From Vulcanimicrobiota bacterium (GTDB lineage Bacteria > Vulcanimicrobiota > Vulcanimicrobiia > Vulcanimicrobiales > Vulcanimicrobiaceae): 37,922 nucleotides of DNA. The stretch spans positions 1 through 37,922 of the forward strand of contig JASHXG010000020.1 of assembly GCA_030043675.1 (NCBI GenBank), in the 5' to 3' direction. The position numbers and the translations under genes are program-made. Below the pieces are notes generated by a model. It searched no databases, was not told the origin of the DNA, and saw only the letters and a program-made list of their open reading frames with translations. Of the stretch, positions 7,776-37,539 are shown one piece after another. Within the stretch, counting starts at the first letter, position 1; each line of letters starts with the position of its first letter.

Positions 7776-8029
7776 GTGTCGAGCCCCCTATCGCGAAAGC
7801 GAACCGCGTCGATTATCGAGATGGAGCGGCTTCAGCCTACGGCGGCTTCAGCCCAAGAGCCGTAATTCGGGGACAGCTGAGGGCACCCCCGCGTGGCACA
7901 CCAAGCGGCGGCGCAACAGGCTACGTTCGGAGAGAGACGAAAGCTACACACATCGCAGCGAGTGAGCTAGGCCACTGTTTGCAGCCGTGCCAGCCGGCAC
8001 CGCATTCAAGGATAAGGAGCGGTCGGATC

Positions 8030-9121
8030 ATGAGCATCTTTCATACGGCCACACGCGCCCTGGGAGTTGCAGTTGCGGTCGTCTTATTTGCCGGCTGCAG
8101 CGCGGCGATGGCGCCGGTCGCTCCGGGAGCGCAGACCGGTGCGCCAGGCTCCTCCGCAAAGCAAGTGCCGCCGCCGCTGGCGATGCGCCTGACCAACGCG
8201 CTCGGGCTCGCCCCCGTGCCGCGCCGAAACGCTCGCGCGTCCTGGATGTCGGCGAACGCGAAGGCTACGGGTCCTCTCCTCTATAGTTCCAACCAAGACT
8301 TCAGTGAGATCGACGTCTACGGCTACAAAAGCAGAAAGCTCGTTGGGCAGATCACGAGCGGGGTTGTTTATCCTTACGGAGAGTGTGCGGATGCCTCGGG
8401 CAACGTATGGGTCGCCGATTTAGAGGGTTTCGACCTCGTCGAATACGCGCATGGCGCGACGAAGGCCACCACGCAGCTGACGGACGATTACGGGAACCCG
8501 ATCGGCTGCTCGGTCGACCCCAAGACCGGAGACCTCGCCGTCGCCAACTTCGAAGGAAGTCCAAGCGGATACGGCGGGAATATCGTCATCTACCGCAACG
8601 CCGCAGGCGCCGGAAAAGTGTACACGCCGGCGAGCACGTTCTTGTGGCCTCCCAGCTACGACGATAAGGACAATCTCTTCATCGAGGGTGAAAGTGCCGT
8701 CTCGGGCGATCATGAGCTGTTCGAACTCGCAAAGGGAGGCAAATCGCTGACAGAAATCTCGCTGCCCTTCACCATCTATTTCCCGGCAGGCGTCAACTGG
8801 GACGGAAAGTACGTCGACGCCAACGATCAGGCTTACGAGGATACCGACACGACGGGCGTATACCGGCTTACGATCTCGGGTTCGACCGCTAAGCTTGTAA
8901 GCCAGACCGGTTACACTGATACCTGTTACGACGACTACGTCGACGTGGTACAGGCCGTCATCGACGGCAACACGTATATCGGCGGAAACCTCTTCTGCCA
9001 AGATGCGGCCAAGTACCGCATCGACTACTGGGGGTACTCGAGCGGAGGCAACGCGCGCGAGTACATCAACGGCCAGTCGAACTTCAGCGATACCTCGTAC
9101 GGACAAGCGCTCAGCAAATAA
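8030..9121 (+). CDS. Secreted propeller-like lipoprotein (paralog 5)
   Basis: Start trimmed to ATG 8030 with AAGGAG upstream; MSIFHTATRALGVAVAVVLFAGCSAAM lipobox; 'RASWMSANAKATGPLLYSSNQDFSEIDVYGYKSRKLVGQI'. Confidence 0.83.
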   Translation: MSIFHTATRALGVAVAVVLFAGCSAAMAPVAPGAQTGAPGSSAKQVPPPLAMRLTNALGLAPVPRRNARASWMSANAKATGPLLYSSNQDFSEIDVYGYKSRKLVGQITSGVVYPYGECADASGNVWVADLEGFDLVEYAHGATKATTQLTDDYGNPIGCSVDPKTGDLAVANFEGSPSGYGGNIVIYRNAAGAGKVYTPASTFLWPPSYDDKDNLFIEGESAVSGDHELFELAKGGKSLTEISLPFTIYFPAGVNWDGKYVDANDQAYEDTDTTGVYRLTISGSTAKLVSQTGYTDTCYDDYVDVVQAVIDGNTYIGGNLFCQDAAKYRIDYWGYSSGGNAREYINGQSNFSDTSYGQALSK

Positions 9122-9183
9122 AGCTCGGGCGTTCGGACGTATTCCTTCAGACTTTCTTCATATGATGTGGCCATGCTCGGGCT

Positions 9184-9453
9184 ATGTCATTAGCGCGAAT
9201 CGTCTTCCTCAGAGGCATCGTGGTACTGCCCGCTGCAGGCCTGCTTCCGCAAGAAGCGTTTGCCGACGCCTCAAAGGCCTCGCAGTCGTCGATGCATTAT
9301 CAAAGCACGCCGAACGACGGCAAGCACTGCTCGCTCTGTCAGTTCTTCGTGCCGGGGCAAGATGCGACGTCCAACGGCACCTGTCAGGTCGTCGATGGAT
9401 CGATCTCGCCCAACGGCTACTGCATAGCATTTAACGCAAAAGCGTCTCAGTAA
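9184..9453 (+). CDS. High-potential iron-sulfur protein (HiPIP)-like, exported
   Basis: 89 aa; signal-like N-terminus; four-Cys pattern HCSLCQFF...GTCQVVDGSISPNGYCIAF matches the HiPIP family. Confidence 0.8.
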   Translation: MSLARIVFLRGIVVLPAAGLLPQEAFADASKASQSSMHYQSTPNDGKHCSLCQFFVPGQDATSNGTCQVVDGSISPNGYCIAFNAKASQ

Positions 9454-27374: not shown

Positions 27375-27884
27375 TTAGGAGCCGAGCAGCGACTCTACGG
27401 TCGCGCGAACGTCGTCGTCTTGAGAGTCGCCCACGATCGTTCGGTGCAGCGCGCCCCGCCGATCGAAGATGAGCTCGGTAGGCCAGGCTTGGACGTCATA
27501 GGCGTGCCAGAGCGCAAAATCGTTGTCGATCGCGACCGGCCAGACGATGCCTTGGCTGGCGAGGCTCTGCTCGACGTAAGGCCGCGAACGTTCCACCGGC
27601 GTCTCCGGTGCGTGGATGCCGATGATCCTCAAGCCACGCGCGCGGTCGCGAGCATAAAGCGCGCGTAGGGTGGGCACGACGTTTCGGCAGTTGAAGCAGT
27701 CGACGGTAAAGACGTCGAGGACCACGACGTCACCTGACAGATCCCGGGCCGAAACGCGGCCGTTGATCCAATCGCCGGCTCCGTCGAGCCGGTCGAGCGA
27801 CACTGACGCGGCGCTTGCCGGCTGACGGGCAGGCATGCACGCCGCGGCTATGCAGCATGCGACCGCGAGCAGCCACCATCGCAT
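27375..27884 (-). CDS. Thioredoxin-fold (TlpA/redoxin-like) lipoprotein
   Basis: Start likely at internal ATG (MRWWLLAVACCIAAACMPARQ); CxxC-type 'FTVDCFNCRNVVPTLRALYARDR', 'WPTELIFDRRG'. Confidence 0.85.
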   Translation of the reverse strand: MRWWLLAVACCIAAACMPARQPASAASVSLDRLDGAGDWINGRVSARDLSGDVVVLDVFTVDCFNCRNVVPTLRALYARDRARGLRIIGIHAPETPVERSRPYVEQSLASQGIVWPVAIDNDFALWHAYDVQAWPTELIFDRRGALHRTIVGDSQDDDVRATVESLLGS

Positions 27885-27922
27885 GATCGTTGTACGCCAC
27901 CACTTGCCGATTGGATGAGTCC

Positions 27923-29914
27923 TCACTGGAAATGCTGGCCGATGAAACCGAGCCAGTAATGGTAGACGTCAACGGTCCGCACCGGATCGCGCGGGAAATG
28001 GCCGTCGACCGGCCAAACGCGCAGCGTCGCATCCTTGTGGTTGTCGCGCAGCGCGCGCCAGTACATCGATGAAGTGGCGAACGGATCGCGGTTGTCGCCG
28101 ACGTCGGAGAGGATCAGCACCGGCGTCGTCACGTCGCCGGCGTAGCTGATCGCCGAAGCGCGCCGCCATTCATCCACGTTGGCGCTCATGAACGGCGAGC
28201 CGTGAAAAAGATCCGCGTCGGCTAGACTGTCATCGGCCGTGCCGTAATCGGTGATCCAATCGTTGACCGAAGCACCCGACACCGCCGCCTTCCAAATATG
28301 GTACTTCGAGATCATCCACGCCGTCATGATTCCGCCGTACGACCAGCCCGAGACGGCGATGCGGCTGTCGTCGACGATGCCGCGCGCACGCACCGCGTCG
28401 ATCGCGGCCATGATGTCCTTGCCGGGTCCTAGCTCGGGGTCGTAAAGCACGGCGCGTTGATAGGCGAGGCCGAGGTTGTTGCTGCCGCGATAGTTGGGCC
28501 GCAGCACCAGCCATCCACGCGCGGCCATGACCTGCGACCAGAAATCAAAACCCAGTGTCGACGATGAGGTCGGGCCGCCGTGAATGAAGACGCTCAGCGG
28601 ATAGCGGCGCCCTTCGACAAAGCCGGGCGGCGTGTAGAGCACGGCATCGCCGGTGATACCGAGGCTAGTGGGAAAGGTAATGCGTTGCGCCGAGGCGAGA
28701 TTCAGCGCCGCGATCGATGCATTGTAGTCGGTTAAACGCGTCGTCGCGCCGGCGGCCGCGCGGAAAAAGAGTTCGGGCGGCTGTTTTGGCGAGGAAGCGA
28801 TGAAGAGCAGCGTTCCGTCCGGCCCGAGCGCATTCGCAAGCTCGGGCGCCATGGTTAGATCGCCGAGCTCGACGCGTTCCGGCCGCCCTTCGAGCGGCAC
28901 CCGAAAGAGCGCCGTCGTAGCGTCATAGGGCGCGGTGAAGTAGAGGCTCTTCGAGTCGCGTGCCCAGGCGAAGTCTGCCACCGTGCGATCGACCGGCGTC
29001 GAGACCGGCGTACCGTTTCCGCCGGCCGGCGTCGTCACGTAGACCTGCACCAGATTGACTTGCGAATCGCCGTCGGAATACGCGTAGGCGATGTGGCGAC
29101 CATCGGGCGAGAAGAGCGCGTTACTCTCCCATGCAGTATGCGTTGTAAGGGGACGCACGGCGCGAGTGGCGACGTCGAGCAGCACGACGTGCGAATAGCT
29201 TTCGTCGTTGAGGATCGCGTCGGGCGCGAGGGTGAAAACGATGCTCTTTCCGTCTGGGGACCACGAGAGCGTCGACTGCGCTTCGCCGGTGACGATGCTC
29301 TGCGCGCCGAAGGTCAGCTGCGTCATCGTTCCGTCGCGCAGCGAGACGAGGAAGAGGTGCGCGGGATGTGCCGGCCGGCGCGCCACGATCGGCTGGGTCG
29401 TGAAAACGAAGCTGTCGCGGAAGCGGTCGGCTCCCTTGGGTTCCGGCGGTGGATCCGCAGAAACGAACGCGATCGCCGCTCCGTCCGGGCGCCAGGCGAA
29501 CTGTTCGACGCCGCCCTTCGCATGCGTGACCGGGTGCGCGTCGCCGCCGTTGAGCGGCATGACGAAGACCTGACTCTGCGCGTCGGCTCCGGTGCCGTCT
29601 TCGGCGAGGAACGCCAGGCGCGTCCCATCAGGCGAGAAGGCCGGATCCGAAAGTCCCTTGCGTTGATAAGTGAGCGTCCGTTGCGCGTGCGTGGCGAGGT
29701 CGATCAGAACCAGCTCGTTGTCGCGGCGGTCTTCGTCCCACGCGATGCGCGAGACCAGCACGACCGCCGCTTTTCCGTCGGGCGAGAGTACCGGAGACGC
29801 CAGGCCAACCAGGCGCTGATAGTCGTCCTCGCCGATCGTTCCGGCCGGCTGCGCGGCCGCCCAAGTCAACGTCGCGAACAGCATGAGGAGAACGGCCAGG
29901 GATCGGACCGGCAT
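27923..29914 (-). CDS. S9-family prolyl oligopeptidase-like peptidase, exported
   Basis: 663 aa; signal peptide; WD40/TolB-like repeats; 'SRIAVSGWSYGGIMTAWMISKYH' Ser motif; C-terminal 'VWPVDGHFPRDP'. Confidence 0.93.
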   Translation of the reverse strand: MPVRSLAVLLMLFATLTWAAAQPAGTIGEDDYQRLVGLASPVLSPDGKAAVVLVSRIAWDEDRRDNELVLIDLATHAQRTLTYQRKGLSDPAFSPDGTRLAFLAEDGTGADAQSQVFVMPLNGGDAHPVTHAKGGVEQFAWRPDGAAIAFVSADPPPEPKGADRFRDSFVFTTQPIVARRPAHPAHLFLVSLRDGTMTQLTFGAQSIVTGEAQSTLSWSPDGKSIVFTLAPDAILNDESYSHVVLLDVATRAVRPLTTHTAWESNALFSPDGRHIAYAYSDGDSQVNLVQVYVTTPAGGNGTPVSTPVDRTVADFAWARDSKSLYFTAPYDATTALFRVPLEGRPERVELGDLTMAPELANALGPDGTLLFIASSPKQPPELFFRAAAGATTRLTDYNASIAALNLASAQRITFPTSLGITGDAVLYTPPGFVEGRRYPLSVFIHGGPTSSSTLGFDFWSQVMAARGWLVLRPNYRGSNNLGLAYQRAVLYDPELGPGKDIMAAIDAVRARGIVDDSRIAVSGWSYGGIMTAWMISKYHIWKAAVSGASVNDWITDYGTADDSLADADLFHGSPFMSANVDEWRRASAISYAGDVTTPVLILSDVGDNRDPFATSSMYWRALRDNHKDATLRVWPVDGHFPRDPVRTVDVYHYWLGFIGQHFQ

Positions 29915-32882: not shown

Positions 32883-33536
32883 ATGGCTTCATCAGGGAGC
32901 CTCGCCGTATTTTGCGGTCCCTCGCTGGCGCCTGAAGACCGGCTACCCGTTGCGGAGGTTTCCTATCTGCCGCCGGCTGCGCGCGGCGACATCGAGCGCG
33001 CAGCTGCGAGCTTCGATAACCTTCTCTTAATAGACGGCGTCTTTCATCACGACCTCGCGCCTTCGCCCAAGGAGTGCTACAAGGCCGCGCAACGGGTTTG
33101 CTGTTTCGGGGCCGCGAGCTTGGGCGCGCTGCGAGCCGCAGAGTGCGCGCCCTACGGCTTCGCGCCGCTCGGCATCATCGCGCGCTGGTATATTTGCGAG
33201 GTCATCGACGGCGACGACGAGGTCGCGGTGGCCGTCGATCCGCGGACCCAATCGGCGCTAAGCGTTCCCTCGGTAAACGTTCGTTTCGTGGCACGGCTGG
33301 CGGTGCGGCGCGGCATCATCTCGTGCTCCGAAGCCGGTCGGCTTGTCGCGCAAGCGCGCGAGGTCTACTACGCGGATCGAACCTGGGAGGACGTGCTGGC
33401 GCTTGCGCCCGCGAAGGCTCGCGCGGCGCTCGGGGCGCTGGCGGCGAGACGCGGCGATCTGAAGCGCCTCGACGCGCGGTTTGCGCTGAATAGCGTCCTG
33501 CGCGCCCTTGCTCGGCGCGAGCACGCCCATGCTTGA
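32883..33536 (+). CDS. TfuA-domain protein (YcaO partner)
   Basis: 217 aa; 'AVFCGPSLAPEDR', 'LLLIDGVFHHDLAPSPKECYKAAQRVCCFGAASLGALRAAECAPYGFAPLGIIARWY...GDDEVAVAVD' matches the TfuA-like core. Confidence 0.92.
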   Translation: MASSGSLAVFCGPSLAPEDRLPVAEVSYLPPAARGDIERAAASFDNLLLIDGVFHHDLAPSPKECYKAAQRVCCFGAASLGALRAAECAPYGFAPLGIIARWYICEVIDGDDEVAVAVDPRTQSALSVPSVNVRFVARLAVRRGIISCSEAGRLVAQAREVYYADRTWEDVLALAPAKARAALGALAARRGDLKRLDARFALNSVLRALARREHAHA

Positions 33537-34728
33537 CCAGACGGCCTCTCACCGCAAGGCGTCCGGATCGTACGATCGTTGCGTTCCGCTCGAACGAACG
33601 CTCGAGCTCGTTGCGGAGCTTCGCGCGCGTTGCGCAATCACGCGCATCGGCGACATCACGCGCCTCGATCGCATCGGCATTCCCACTTTCTGCGCGATCG
33701 TCCCAACTTCGGGCGCCGGACTGACCGTCTTCAATGGCAAGGGTGCGACGAAGGAGGCGGCGCGCGCGAGCGCGGTATTCGAGGCCGTCGAACGCGTGAC
33801 CGCCGCTTCACCGTGGCTACAGTCTCGCACGCGCGCTCTCGCCGGTGTGGAGTGTATCGAGGGCCACGATCTCCTCAACGGACGCAGCGTGCACGTGCCG
33901 CTCGACTCAGTGCATCTCCGCCGCCCCAAAGACCCGAGCTTTCCGGTTCCGACTTCGAACGGTTTGGCCTCGGGAAACACGCTCACCGAGGCGACCTATC
34001 ACGCGCTCTGCGAGCTGATCGAACGCCACAGCTGGTCGCTCTACCAGATGCGATGTGAACGCCTGCCCCGGATGCTTGGTGGACGAGGTGCGCACGATAT
34101 AGCGTTTGCGCCCGAGCTTCGAATCCCAAGCGGGAATGCGGACCTCGATCGACTGGCCGAGCGTGTCACGGCTCAAGGCTTGCGGTTGCGGATTCTCTAC
34201 TTGTACGAGCCGCATCTGCCTGCAGTGATGCTGTCAAGCATCGTCGAGGAAGGATCCGTTCCGCCGATGTCCCATATCGGCTTGGGCTGTTCGCTCTCGC
34301 CCGCTCATGCCGCCATTCGGGCCATCACTGAGGCGGCGCAAAGCAGGCTGACCGATATTCACGGCGCTCGCGATGATGCATTACGCGCGAGCGACGCGCC
34401 GACGCGCGCCACGGAGCACACCCGTCGGCTTTCCAAAGCGCCGAAGAAGGTTTGGTTTTACGATCTTCCGGCGCGCTCGATCGGGTTGGGACCAATACCC
34501 GACCTCTCGACAAACGACGTGGCCGAGGACGTGAGGCGCATCCTATCGGCCCTGGCACTTTTCGGCGCCTCGTCTGCAACGATTGTCGACCTGTCACCGC
34601 CGGATCTGCCGGTAACGGTCGTTCGCGCGATCGTTCCGGAGCTCGAAACGACCTGCGTCGACGGACGAATCGGTCCCAAGGCCAGAGAGGCCTTAAATCC
34701 CTTCAGCATGTTCAAAGTACCTTTTTGA
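33529..34728 (+). CDS. YcaO-domain peptide cyclodehydratase/thioamidase-type protein
   Basis: Track starts at TTG 33508; ATG at 33529 overlaps the TfuA stop by 8 nt. YcaO ATP-binding signatures: 'SAVFEAVERV', 'ALCELIERHSWSLYQ', 'AIRAITEAAQSRLTDIHGARDD'. Confidence 0.95.
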   Translation: MLDQTASHRKASGSYDRCVPLERTLELVAELRARCAITRIGDITRLDRIGIPTFCAIVPTSGAGLTVFNGKGATKEAARASAVFEAVERVTAASPWLQSRTRALAGVECIEGHDLLNGRSVHVPLDSVHLRRPKDPSFPVPTSNGLASGNTLTEATYHALCELIERHSWSLYQMRCERLPRMLGGRGAHDIAFAPELRIPSGNADLDRLAERVTAQGLRLRILYLYEPHLPAVMLSSIVEEGSVPPMSHIGLGCSLSPAHAAIRAITEAAQSRLTDIHGARDDALRASDAPTRATEHTRRLSKAPKKVWFYDLPARSIGLGPIPDLSTNDVAEDVRRILSALALFGASSATIVDLSPPDLPVTVVRAIVPELETTCVDGRIGPKAREALNPFSMFKVPF

Positions 34729-34737
34729 GAGGACGTC

Positions 34738-35031
34738 ATGAACCCGACACAACAGAATGCCGCGGCAGCCGGCTTCATCCAAGCCCTGTACGACTCGGCC
34801 ACCCTGCGCGCCCAATGGGTTGAGATACAGAGCAACGGCTGGGAGGGCTTGGGCGCCCTCATCCAGTCGACGCTTGGGCTGGCGGTAACTCCGAGCAACG
34901 CGGATCTCACCGCGATGCGCGCCTACTCCGAAAACTATACGCCGGCTTCGCCAGCAGATCTCGCGGGAGAAGATCCCAGCGTCAATCCCATCTGTATCTT
35001 CAACGGTGCGAACGGACCCGCAAACGACTAA
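34738..35031 (+). CDS. Candidate RiPP precursor peptide (Nif11/NHLP-like leader, single-Cys tail)
   Basis: 97 aa starting 9 nt after the YcaO stop with SD GAGAGG; 'AAGFIQALYDSATLRAQWVEIQSNGWEGLGALIQSTLGLAVTPSNADLTAM' leader-like; tail 'AGEDPSVNPICIFNGANGPAND'. Confidence 0.8.
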   Translation: MNPTQQNAAAAGFIQALYDSATLRAQWVEIQSNGWEGLGALIQSTLGLAVTPSNADLTAMRAYSENYTPASPADLAGEDPSVNPICIFNGANGPAND

Positions 35032-35049: not shown

Positions 35050-37539
35050 TCAGATCTCGCGAGCCTCGGCCACCACCTCTTGATTCGACCAGCGACCGCC
35101 CTCCGCGAGGCGAGCATCTAGGTCGCCCGCGCCGAGGGTGCCGCGCAACAGCGCCAGCAGCGCCGTGTACTCCTGCTGCTCGGTGTATTTTCGCGTGGTG
35201 TCGAGCGCCGCTAGCCGAGCATCGACGAAGCCGAGTATTCGGGCGGCGCGGCGACGAGCGTTGATCGCTCGCCGGTCATCGTCGGCATAGCGCAGCGCGG
35301 CGATGGCCGCCAGGTGTTGCAGCGCCCAAGTGGCGGGCACCTCCATCTGCCGTTCCAACGCCATGTTGAGCCCTTTCCAAGCCTGTACGCGTCCATCGTC
35401 GAATCGCCCGAGCGCCACCAGATAGGCAGCGATATTGCAGACGACCAGCACTTCGCGAGGATTGTGGAGCGCCTGGTATTTCCCAAGCGCGCCGGTCGCA
35501 AGGCGCAGCGCCGTTTCCGCGTCGCCCCCACGAAACTCCGCGCCCGCGAGATTGACCGTCGCGTTGAAGAGCGACTGCTCGGCGCCGATCGGCTCGAGCA
35601 CGGCTATTGCCTCTGCATACAATGGGCGCGAGCCTGCAACGTCGCCCGCCGTCATGCGTGCCATCGCCAGACTCTCCAGCGCGAGCCCGGTAAGCCGCGG
35701 CTTACCCAACGCACGGCAAGCGTCGAGGGACGGTGCCAACAGCCTCTCGCTCTCCCGCGCGTCGCCGAGCAGCGCCAGTGCGCGGCCCGCGACGATGCGG
35801 CTTTCGGCGGCTCCCGCGGCATCACCGGCTCGTTCGAAGAGTTCCAGCGCCCGTTGAGCTGCCGCCAGCATCGGTTTCCAGAACGTCAGATACATCGCGA
35901 TCTTTGCGTCGGCGAGTTCGAGGCGCGCGTCGGTGCCGAGCGGCGTTCGCTCGTCGATCGTGTTCATGGCCAGCCGGATCCACCGACGGCCTTCAACCGC
36001 GGCCTGCGTGGCCCACATCGGGCTCAACGCTACCGTAAGCCGTTGGCCGAGCGGAACGTCACGCTGCGAGCCGAGCGACCATTCCAGCGCCGCTCTCCAG
36101 TTCTCCAGCTCCGGCTCCGCGAGCGCCTTCCAGGCCCGGTCCGGCATTGTTTCGTAGGCGACCTCCAGCCGCTCGGCCAGTTCCAGCATCGCCGCCGCGT
36201 GCGCGGCGCTCACCGAATCCAATTCGTCCCGTTCGATCAACCGCTCGCGCGCGAACAGGCGCGTCGACTCGAGCAGACGATAGCGCGGAGTGTCGCCGGC
36301 AACCTCGGTTTGCACCAGCGACTTCTTCACGAGCGAACCCAAGACGTCGAGCGCATCGCGCTCGCCGCCCTCGTTCCAAATCGCCGTCGCAAGATCGACC
36401 GTGAAGCCGCCCGCGAAGATCGCCAAACGGCAGAATAGCGACCGCTCCGGCTCGGAGAGCAAATTGTAGCTCCAGTCGATCAGCGCCTGGAGCGTCTGCT
36501 GACGGCGGGGACCGGCACGATTTCCGTACGTAAGCAGGCGAAAGCGTTCGTCGAGCTTCTCGGCCAGCGTTTTCACCGGCATCGTGCCTACGCGTGCCGC
36601 CGCGAGCTCGACGGCAAGCGCGATTCCGTCCAAACGCCGGCATAGGTTACCGACGACCGGCGCATAGGCGTCGGTCAGCTCGAAACTCGCATTCGCCGCC
36701 TGCGCGCGATCGGCAAAGAGCGCGACCGATGCGTAACCGAGCGCTTCGGGCGCCGTAAGTGCGGACGTGACGTTGCGTGCCGGCGCCGGCAACGACGGCG
36801 TGGGGTAAACGTGTTCGCCGGCAATGCCGAGCGGCTCGATGCTCGTGCAGAGCACGCGAAGCTGGGCACAGCTGCGCAGCATCGCGTCGACGGCGACAGC
36901 GAGGGACCCCAGAACGTGCTCGCAGTTGTCGAGAATCAGTAGCAGCGCCTTGCTCTTGAGGTGAGCGTTGATCGTCTCGCGCAGCGCGCGTCCCGGATCC
37001 TCTTGCACACCCAACACCGTCGCAATCGCGCCGGAAACCAGAGCGCCGTCGGTCAACGGCGCCAACTCGACGAGCCATGCGCCGTCTTCAAACGCGCCGA
37101 GCATCTCGGAGGCCACCTCCAGGGCAAGGCGCGTCTTGCCGATCCCGCCGGCCCCCGTCAAGGTCACCAAACGATACCTGCGCAGCAAGGCTTCGACGTT
37201 GGCTCGCTCTTGGGCGCGATCCACGAACGACGTCAGCTGCAGCGGAAGGTTATTCGGCACGCTGGGCAGCGGCGCGACGCGACCCGGCAGCGCCCGGGCC
37301 TTACGCCGGCGCTGCGCCAGCGAGTGAAGCCGGGCGCGCGCCTCGCCGTCGATACCGAGACCGTCGGCTAAGAGGTCGACGGTGCTGCGGTACGGAGCCT
37401 GCCGGCTACCGCGCTCGATCGCGCTGATCGCCGCGACGCTCATGCGGGCGCGTTCGGCCAGCTCTTCTTGTGAGAGCCGCCGTTCCAACCGTAACTGTCG
37501 TAAGAGCGAGCCAAAGCTCGACTCGACCGGATCCTTCAC
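35050..37539 (-). CDS. XRE-HTH / STAND ATPase / TPR transcriptional regulator
   Basis: 829 aa; N-terminal HTH 'FGSLLRQLRLERRLSQEELAERARMSVAAISAIERGSR', P-loop 'LVTLTGAGGIGKTRLALEVA', 'ALLLILDNCEHVLG', C-terminal TPR-like repeats. Confidence 0.93.
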   Translation of the reverse strand: MKDPVESSFGSLLRQLRLERRLSQEELAERARMSVAAISAIERGSRQAPYRSTVDLLADGLGIDGEARARLHSLAQRRRKARALPGRVAPLPSVPNNLPLQLTSFVDRAQERANVEALLRRYRLVTLTGAGGIGKTRLALEVASEMLGAFEDGAWLVELAPLTDGALVSGAIATVLGVQEDPGRALRETINAHLKSKALLLILDNCEHVLGSLAVAVDAMLRSCAQLRVLCTSIEPLGIAGEHVYPTPSLPAPARNVTSALTAPEALGYASVALFADRAQAANASFELTDAYAPVVGNLCRRLDGIALAVELAAARVGTMPVKTLAEKLDERFRLLTYGNRAGPRRQQTLQALIDWSYNLLSEPERSLFCRLAIFAGGFTVDLATAIWNEGGERDALDVLGSLVKKSLVQTEVAGDTPRYRLLESTRLFARERLIERDELDSVSAAHAAAMLELAERLEVAYETMPDRAWKALAEPELENWRAALEWSLGSQRDVPLGQRLTVALSPMWATQAAVEGRRWIRLAMNTIDERTPLGTDARLELADAKIAMYLTFWKPMLAAAQRALELFERAGDAAGAAESRIVAGRALALLGDARESERLLAPSLDACRALGKPRLTGLALESLAMARMTAGDVAGSRPLYAEAIAVLEPIGAEQSLFNATVNLAGAEFRGGDAETALRLATGALGKYQALHNPREVLVVCNIAAYLVALGRFDDGRVQAWKGLNMALERQMEVPATWALQHLAAIAALRYADDDRRAINARRRAARILGFVDARLAALDTTRKYTEQQEYTALLALLRGTLGAGDLDARLAEGGRWSNQEVVAEAREI

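Follow-up and report, generated by a model that had tools for sequence, protein, structure and literature searches.

The 97-codon open reading frame that follows adjacent tfuA and ycaO genes in this 37,922-nucleotide stretch of DNA (the window) very probably encodes a RiPP precursor whose core, we infer, is thioamidated on its backbone by the upstream TfuA-YcaO pair. The best reading of the locus is a minimal TfuA-YcaO thioamidated RiPP cluster with a lineage-specific precursor family. The tfuA and ycaO genes lie side by side and a short precursor with a conserved leader and a variable or repeated core is found close by, the combination that defines a TfuA-YcaO cluster (Table 1). Gene order is TfuA, YcaO, precursor; the first YcaO codons overlap the 3' end of the TfuA gene, 9 bp separate the YcaO stop from the precursor start, and a purine-rich, Shine-Dalgarno-like GAGAGG stands immediately 5' of the precursor ATG. 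None of the three genes departs from the window's usual G+C content.

Table 1. Features of the cluster and its convergent neighbour (positions in the window).
Feature	Position	Strand	Basis
TfuA (PF07812)	32883..33536	+	Pfam, 6.4e-28
YcaO (PF02624), thioamide-forming type	33508..34728	+	PF02624, 7.8e-56
Precursor peptide gene	34738..35031	+	ATG start, 97 aa + stop
Leader, residues 1-66	34738..34935	+	Conserved columns in 24-row alignment; four predicted helices
Variable linker, residues 67-81 (approximate boundary)	34936..34980	+	Low identity; pLDDT 57 (residues 71-80)
Predicted core, residues 82-97, VNPICIFNGANGPAND	34981..35028	+	Alignment to relatives' tandem-repeated cores
Convergent regulator, HTH_31/HTH_3 + AAA/NB-ARC + TPR, STAND type	35050..37539	-	Pfam; 829 aa

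The precursor has a conserved leader and a variable core

The precursor frame is a genuine coding sequence, beyond chance: its product is 55% identical in amino acids to the copy in a sister genome (G011), the pair has a pN/pS of 0.53 (dN 0.40, dS 1.13), and homologues are present in 28 genomes of the phylum. As the sequence-only reading of this DNA had claimed, the translation holds a single Cys and an Asn/Gly/Pro-rich tail, with the terminus ...NPICIFNGANGPAND. Of two periodic patterns described in the same reading, L-G-x3-T-x5-L matches the peptide and the other had been misspaced at L-x-x-D; FIQALYDSATLRAQW reads F-x3-L-x-D-x3-L-R-x2-W.

AlphaFold2 predicts four helices in the leader (residues 3-19, 21-32, 38-46 and 54-66). 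Taken in 10-residue blocks, pLDDT is 82-95 up to residue 60 and 70 in residues 61-70; the predicted core is disordered in the model, at low confidence. Mean pairwise identity across the family alignment is 0.47 for residues 1-66 against 0.30 for the remainder, and in the best-sampled genus the corresponding values are 0.92 and 0.69. Between the window and G011, pN is 0.31 for the precursor, 0.09 for YcaO and 0.056 for TfuA; of the three, the precursor is the fastest-evolving. Assignment of the conserved N-terminal ~66 residues as a probable leader, and of the variable C-terminal ~15-20 as a putative core, is supported by these comparisons.

Relatives with one core usually show the form APxxVGxxxxMQ. 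The core of the window's genus reads VNPICIFNGANGP or VNAVVVFNGMNGP (the VNxxxxFNGxNGP type), and the counterpart of the window's core in G011 is VNAVVVFNGMNGPLPGADPTNSSP. The window's Cys is replaced by Val in the G011 core (NAVVVFNG) and is missing from most relatives' cores; it is therefore not conserved, and the orthologues rule it out as a conserved chemical handle. Leader removal had been proposed around LAGEDPS, a segment with no counterpart in G011.

Cores are repeated in tandem in some relatives, which points to the C-terminal segment as the core. The deciding case is G068, where a precursor lying between TfuA and YcaO (L046, 5097-5561) has a leader followed by five tandem cores: GSAGHVGMAFVVQS directly after the leader, then four copies of DAPSHVGxxFVVQx (the first core is also given as GSAGHVGMAFVVQ, with 4x DAPSHVGxxFVVQ). 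The precursor of G033 has two cores, and G028 carries three precursor genes in succession. Tandem cores behind a leader, in five and in two copies, are strong evidence that the family consists of RiPP precursors. The claim of a leader-plus-core precursor beside a YcaO gene has thus been borne out by the conserved leader, the variable C-terminus and the tandem cores of relatives; the contrary outcome named beforehand, a globular domain conserved throughout and lacking a variable core, was not found among the orthologues. The G068 cluster also contains a further YcaO gene (7808-9049) and another precursor, with one core (9065-9352).

The nearest curated models of the enzymes are those of McrA thioamidation

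The nearest NCBIfam models of both enzymes describe archaeal McrA-glycine thioamidation, although the scores fall under the curated cut-offs (YcaO against TIGR03266, 198 bits, cut-off 365; TfuA against NF033432, 146.7 bits, cut-off 235.2). The closest solved structure in the PDB to the window's YcaO is MJ1094 (9e-34), with which it shares the motifs GKG, EAxER, NGLASGN, ELIER/EIIER and TExAQSR. MCR alpha is found in none of the 18 genomes of the window's genus and, with both enzymes below their cut-offs, an McrA thioamidation system was rejected. The closest named relative of the window's YcaO is that of G011, a Candidatus Eremiobacterota MAG (83% identity over residues 1-399). In the YcaO tree the window falls inside a clade of 17 Eremiobacterota rows that has full support; under midpoint rooting this clade sides with Acidobacteria and Actinobacteria, not with methanogens. 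One of the 17 rows is the YcaO of L091 (SCRB01000185.1), filed under the Rhizobiaceae MAG FW021_bin.52 and sister to another bin from the same sample; the contig is probably mis-binned.

In at least three genera a single ORF encodes TfuA fused to YcaO. At the fusion loci (L032, L033, L034, L036, L038-L042, L044 and L045) a methyltransferase usually stands between the TfuA-YcaO ORF and the precursor. A scan of genome contigs with a single YcaO sequence gave no match; a scan with a YcaO alignment succeeded.

The precursor family is confined to one order and linked to TfuA

A family profile built from 24 relatives was searched in 149 genomes of Candidatus Eremiobacterota / Vulcanimicrobiota. All 28 genomes with precursor homologues belong to a single order; the rest of the phylum yielded no member of the leader family, nor was any found near 63 YcaO loci from outside the Eremiobacterota. 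The family is lineage-specific, so far in one Eremiobacterota order. TfuA was detected in 32 of the phylum's genomes, 30 of which belong to the precursor's order, and accompanies the precursor in 28 of 28 genomes, while 28 of the 30 TfuA genomes of the order hold the precursor. This co-occurrence has a hypergeometric P of 3e-23, a value that treats genomes as independent despite their shared ancestry, but physical linkage agrees with the association. Across the window and 22 further contig regions that were sampled, TfuA and/or YcaO lie near the precursor in all but one, the sole exception being a 3 kb contig that carries the precursor and its convergent neighbour only. In G058, which lies outside this linkage sample, the precursor and TfuA matches are on separate contigs.

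A large convergent protein lies beside the precursor

In the window the precursor and a STAND-type regulator gene meet at their 3' ends, and a convergent ORF of >750 aa is found -16 to +136 bp past the last precursor in 22/22 loci (the window included), counted over the sampled loci whose contig continues beyond that point. In most genera this slot is occupied by an AAA_16-LuxR STAND type (one assigned by Pfam, the others by sequence family) and in the window's genus by the HTH-NB-ARC-TPR type. The convergent STAND protein is a candidate pathway regulator. The window's regulator has 3-20 strong matches in each genome of its genus, with or without the cluster, and with so many paralogues the position of the gene no more than suggests a specific link between regulator and peptide.

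Beside the window's cluster, nothing was identified as a dedicated protease, a transporter or an RRE domain. AhpC/thioredoxin-like genes lie upstream of the cluster in several genera, and a methyltransferase gene found in the clusters of several genera is absent from the cluster in the window's genus. On the minus strand of the window (27926-29914) a secreted-looking S9 prolyl oligopeptidase is encoded beside a thioredoxin/AhpC-type gene (27378-27926). It was discarded as the cluster protease: it is present in G011, yet also in 7 more genomes of the genus that lack TfuA, and the other cluster loci sampled are all without it.

Alternative explanations

YcaO might instead convert the core to an azoline or azole at its single Cys, or to an amidine, as the superfamily catalyses several chemistries (PMC13063428); azolines and amidines are further products of YcaO enzymes. 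We regard this as improbable. The Cys/Ser/Thr-rich core that marks azol(in)e (TOMM/LAP) precursors is replaced here by one non-conserved Cys, which gives way to Val in the sister precursor (55% identical, from a cluster of the same make-up) and is missing from the cores of most relatives; TfuA occurs in every precursor-holding genome, and among the neighbouring genes that were scanned none was recognised as a cyclodehydratase or dehydrogenase partner. The earlier argument against an azole-rich product is upheld both by the absence of the Cys from these cores and by the identity of the enzymes, TfuA and a YcaO whose nearest kin are of the McrA-thioamidating type. Slightly less probable again is that the small protein is no precursor at all and works as a stand-alone helical protein, for example as an accessory subunit of YcaO/TfuA. 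The confident four-helix prediction for residues 1-66 would suit such a role; a variable, low-confidence tail that is tandemly repeated in relatives, together with gene duplication and fast evolution, argues against it.

Two further proposals are compatible with a thioamidated RiPP precursor and concern its leader and its function. The peptide's leader had been called Nif11/NHLP-like, but membership of these families is not supported by Pfam or NCBIfam: the peptide matches neither Nif11 (PF07862 / TIGR03798) at E<=10 in either collection nor the NHLP/proteusin leader model TIGR03793 at E<=10 in NCBIfam. Searches of both collections with the peptide and its relatives gave nothing convincing, Nif11 being hit in Pfam by 1 of 24 family members (E=0.0089), and neither a PDB profile search nor Foldseek with the leader model found a significant match for the leader. 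The likeness to Nif11 leaders, as distinct from membership, stands only in part: profile-profile comparison suggests a weak similarity above chance. Aligned by hhalign with a set of Nif11 sequences drawn from Hyella patelloides and Eremiobacterota genomes, the leader scores 15.6, in register, against a maximum of 14.8 among 300 column-shuffled controls (a lenient control, because shuffling columns breaks helix periodicity) and of 12.1 among 49 YcaO windows; rotating the template is uninformative, since a local alignment survives rotation. The same comparison gives E values of 0.065 at full length and 0.012 for leaders alone, at a probability <4%. The window peptide has no GG for a double-Gly cleavage site, and only L042 and L047 of the 24 alignment rows contain GG, at unrelated positions. 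Nif11 precursors do accompany TfuA elsewhere (G107 of this phylum; Hyella; PMC8120280), and remote common ancestry of the two leaders is possible on these alignments; that the leader is a true Nif11-family member diverged past the curated models is a minority view that we entertain without favouring it. Somewhat more doubtful is the proposal that the mature core is a thioamidated peptide signal which the STAND regulator detects through its TPR part. The tail-to-tail ORF at every sampled continuing locus, and the occupation of one slot by two distinct regulator types, would fit such a signal, but the clusters share ancestry, so that the 22 loci cannot be counted as independent, the window's regulator comes from a large paralogous family, and ordinary pathway regulators would look alike. 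The broadest version, in which the Eremiobacterota have a class of thioamidated peptides peculiar to them, with a separate leader family and multi-core precursors, that signals through the tail-to-tail STAND/TPR regulator, seems to us unlikely.

A proposed route to a thioamidated peptide

In the favoured reading, a thioamidated RiPP, the leader would dock the precursor on the YcaO-TfuA pair, in line with the logic published for TfuA-YcaO thioamidation (PMC6511847, PMC8120280, PMC13063428). TfuA, which according to PMC13063428 hydrolyses a thiocarboxylated ThiS carrier, would free sulphide from a ThiS-type carrier of this kind; the window's genome has two ThiS-like genes. YcaO would use ATP to activate one or a few backbone amides of the core, and sulphide would displace oxygen to leave one or more thioamides within the core segment, most plausibly at or beside Gly (NG in the window, VG in most relatives). 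VG is common elsewhere but VN stands in the window's genus, so a Gly-centred site is a guess. Host peptidases could then cut off leader and linker to give a short hydrophobic thioamidated peptide. As to its role, our nearest guess is that the peptide is secreted and acts as a bioactive compound or a signal, with the cluster under the convergent STAND regulator.

Discussion

TfuA-YcaO thioamidated RiPPs, repeated cores and Nif11-type precursors are all already published. The precursor family itself appears to be undescribed until now: word searches of the literature turned up no account of the leader family, and Eremiobacterota are not mentioned in the main text of Malit 2021, although the family may already have been detected in the supplementary peptide networks of that paper. 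The leader family lies beyond the coverage of Pfam and NCBIfam. Three genes in 2.1 kb provide a small, testable thioamidation system from an uncultivated phylum, in which natural variation between one, two and five cores could reveal the substrate requirements of TfuA-YcaO. Published genome mining has found many TfuA clusters whose modified residues are unknown; the repeats described here narrow the candidate segment to ~14 residues.

Among known systems, the thiovarsolin cluster (VarA/VarY/VarT; PMC6511847) likewise combines TfuA, YcaO and a precursor, in a family that spans one core to five tandem core repeats, and has no dedicated protease. It differs in its APR/GPR cores and its actinobacterial hosts, the Eremiobacterota cores being longer and hydrophobic (APxxVGxxxxMQ or VNxxxxFNGxNGP), and its seven genes add heme-oxygenase-like, ATP-grasp, MFS and amidinotransferase functions. 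Many Eremiobacterota clusters carry a methyltransferase in comparison, although the window's does not. The methanogen McrA-glycine YcaO and TfuA (TIGR03266, NF033432, MJ1094) provide the closest curated models and structure for the window's enzymes, which differ in their sub-threshold scores, separate YcaO clade and lack of MCR alpha in the genus. Proteusin maturases differ from the TfuA-YcaO pair found here. Proteusins (NHLP), such as pythonamide of Ca. Eudoremicrobium from the same phylum (PMC9259500), are also Eremiobacterota RiPPs with long-leader precursors, but the window peptide matches no NHLP model.

Nif11-led TfuA-YcaO clusters (PMC8120280, Fig. 4D; Hyella patelloides, G107) have leaders of similar length, TfuA-YcaO neighbours and a C-terminal core that varies but contains an xG motif, YG for Hyella and VG for G107. 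Their leaders match PF07862 and most carry a GG cleavage site, two features missing from the window peptide. The precursors of Hyella and the one beside TfuA in G107 were recovered with the same Pfam model. The latter (L172, G107:C3:327084), from another family of the phylum, ends in SVTVGAAAAAF and lies ~0.4 kb from the TfuA gene. In Hyella patelloides (L151 / NZ_LR213839.1) seven Nif11 precursors share a contig with a TfuA-type YcaO, and each carries its YG motif near the C-terminus.
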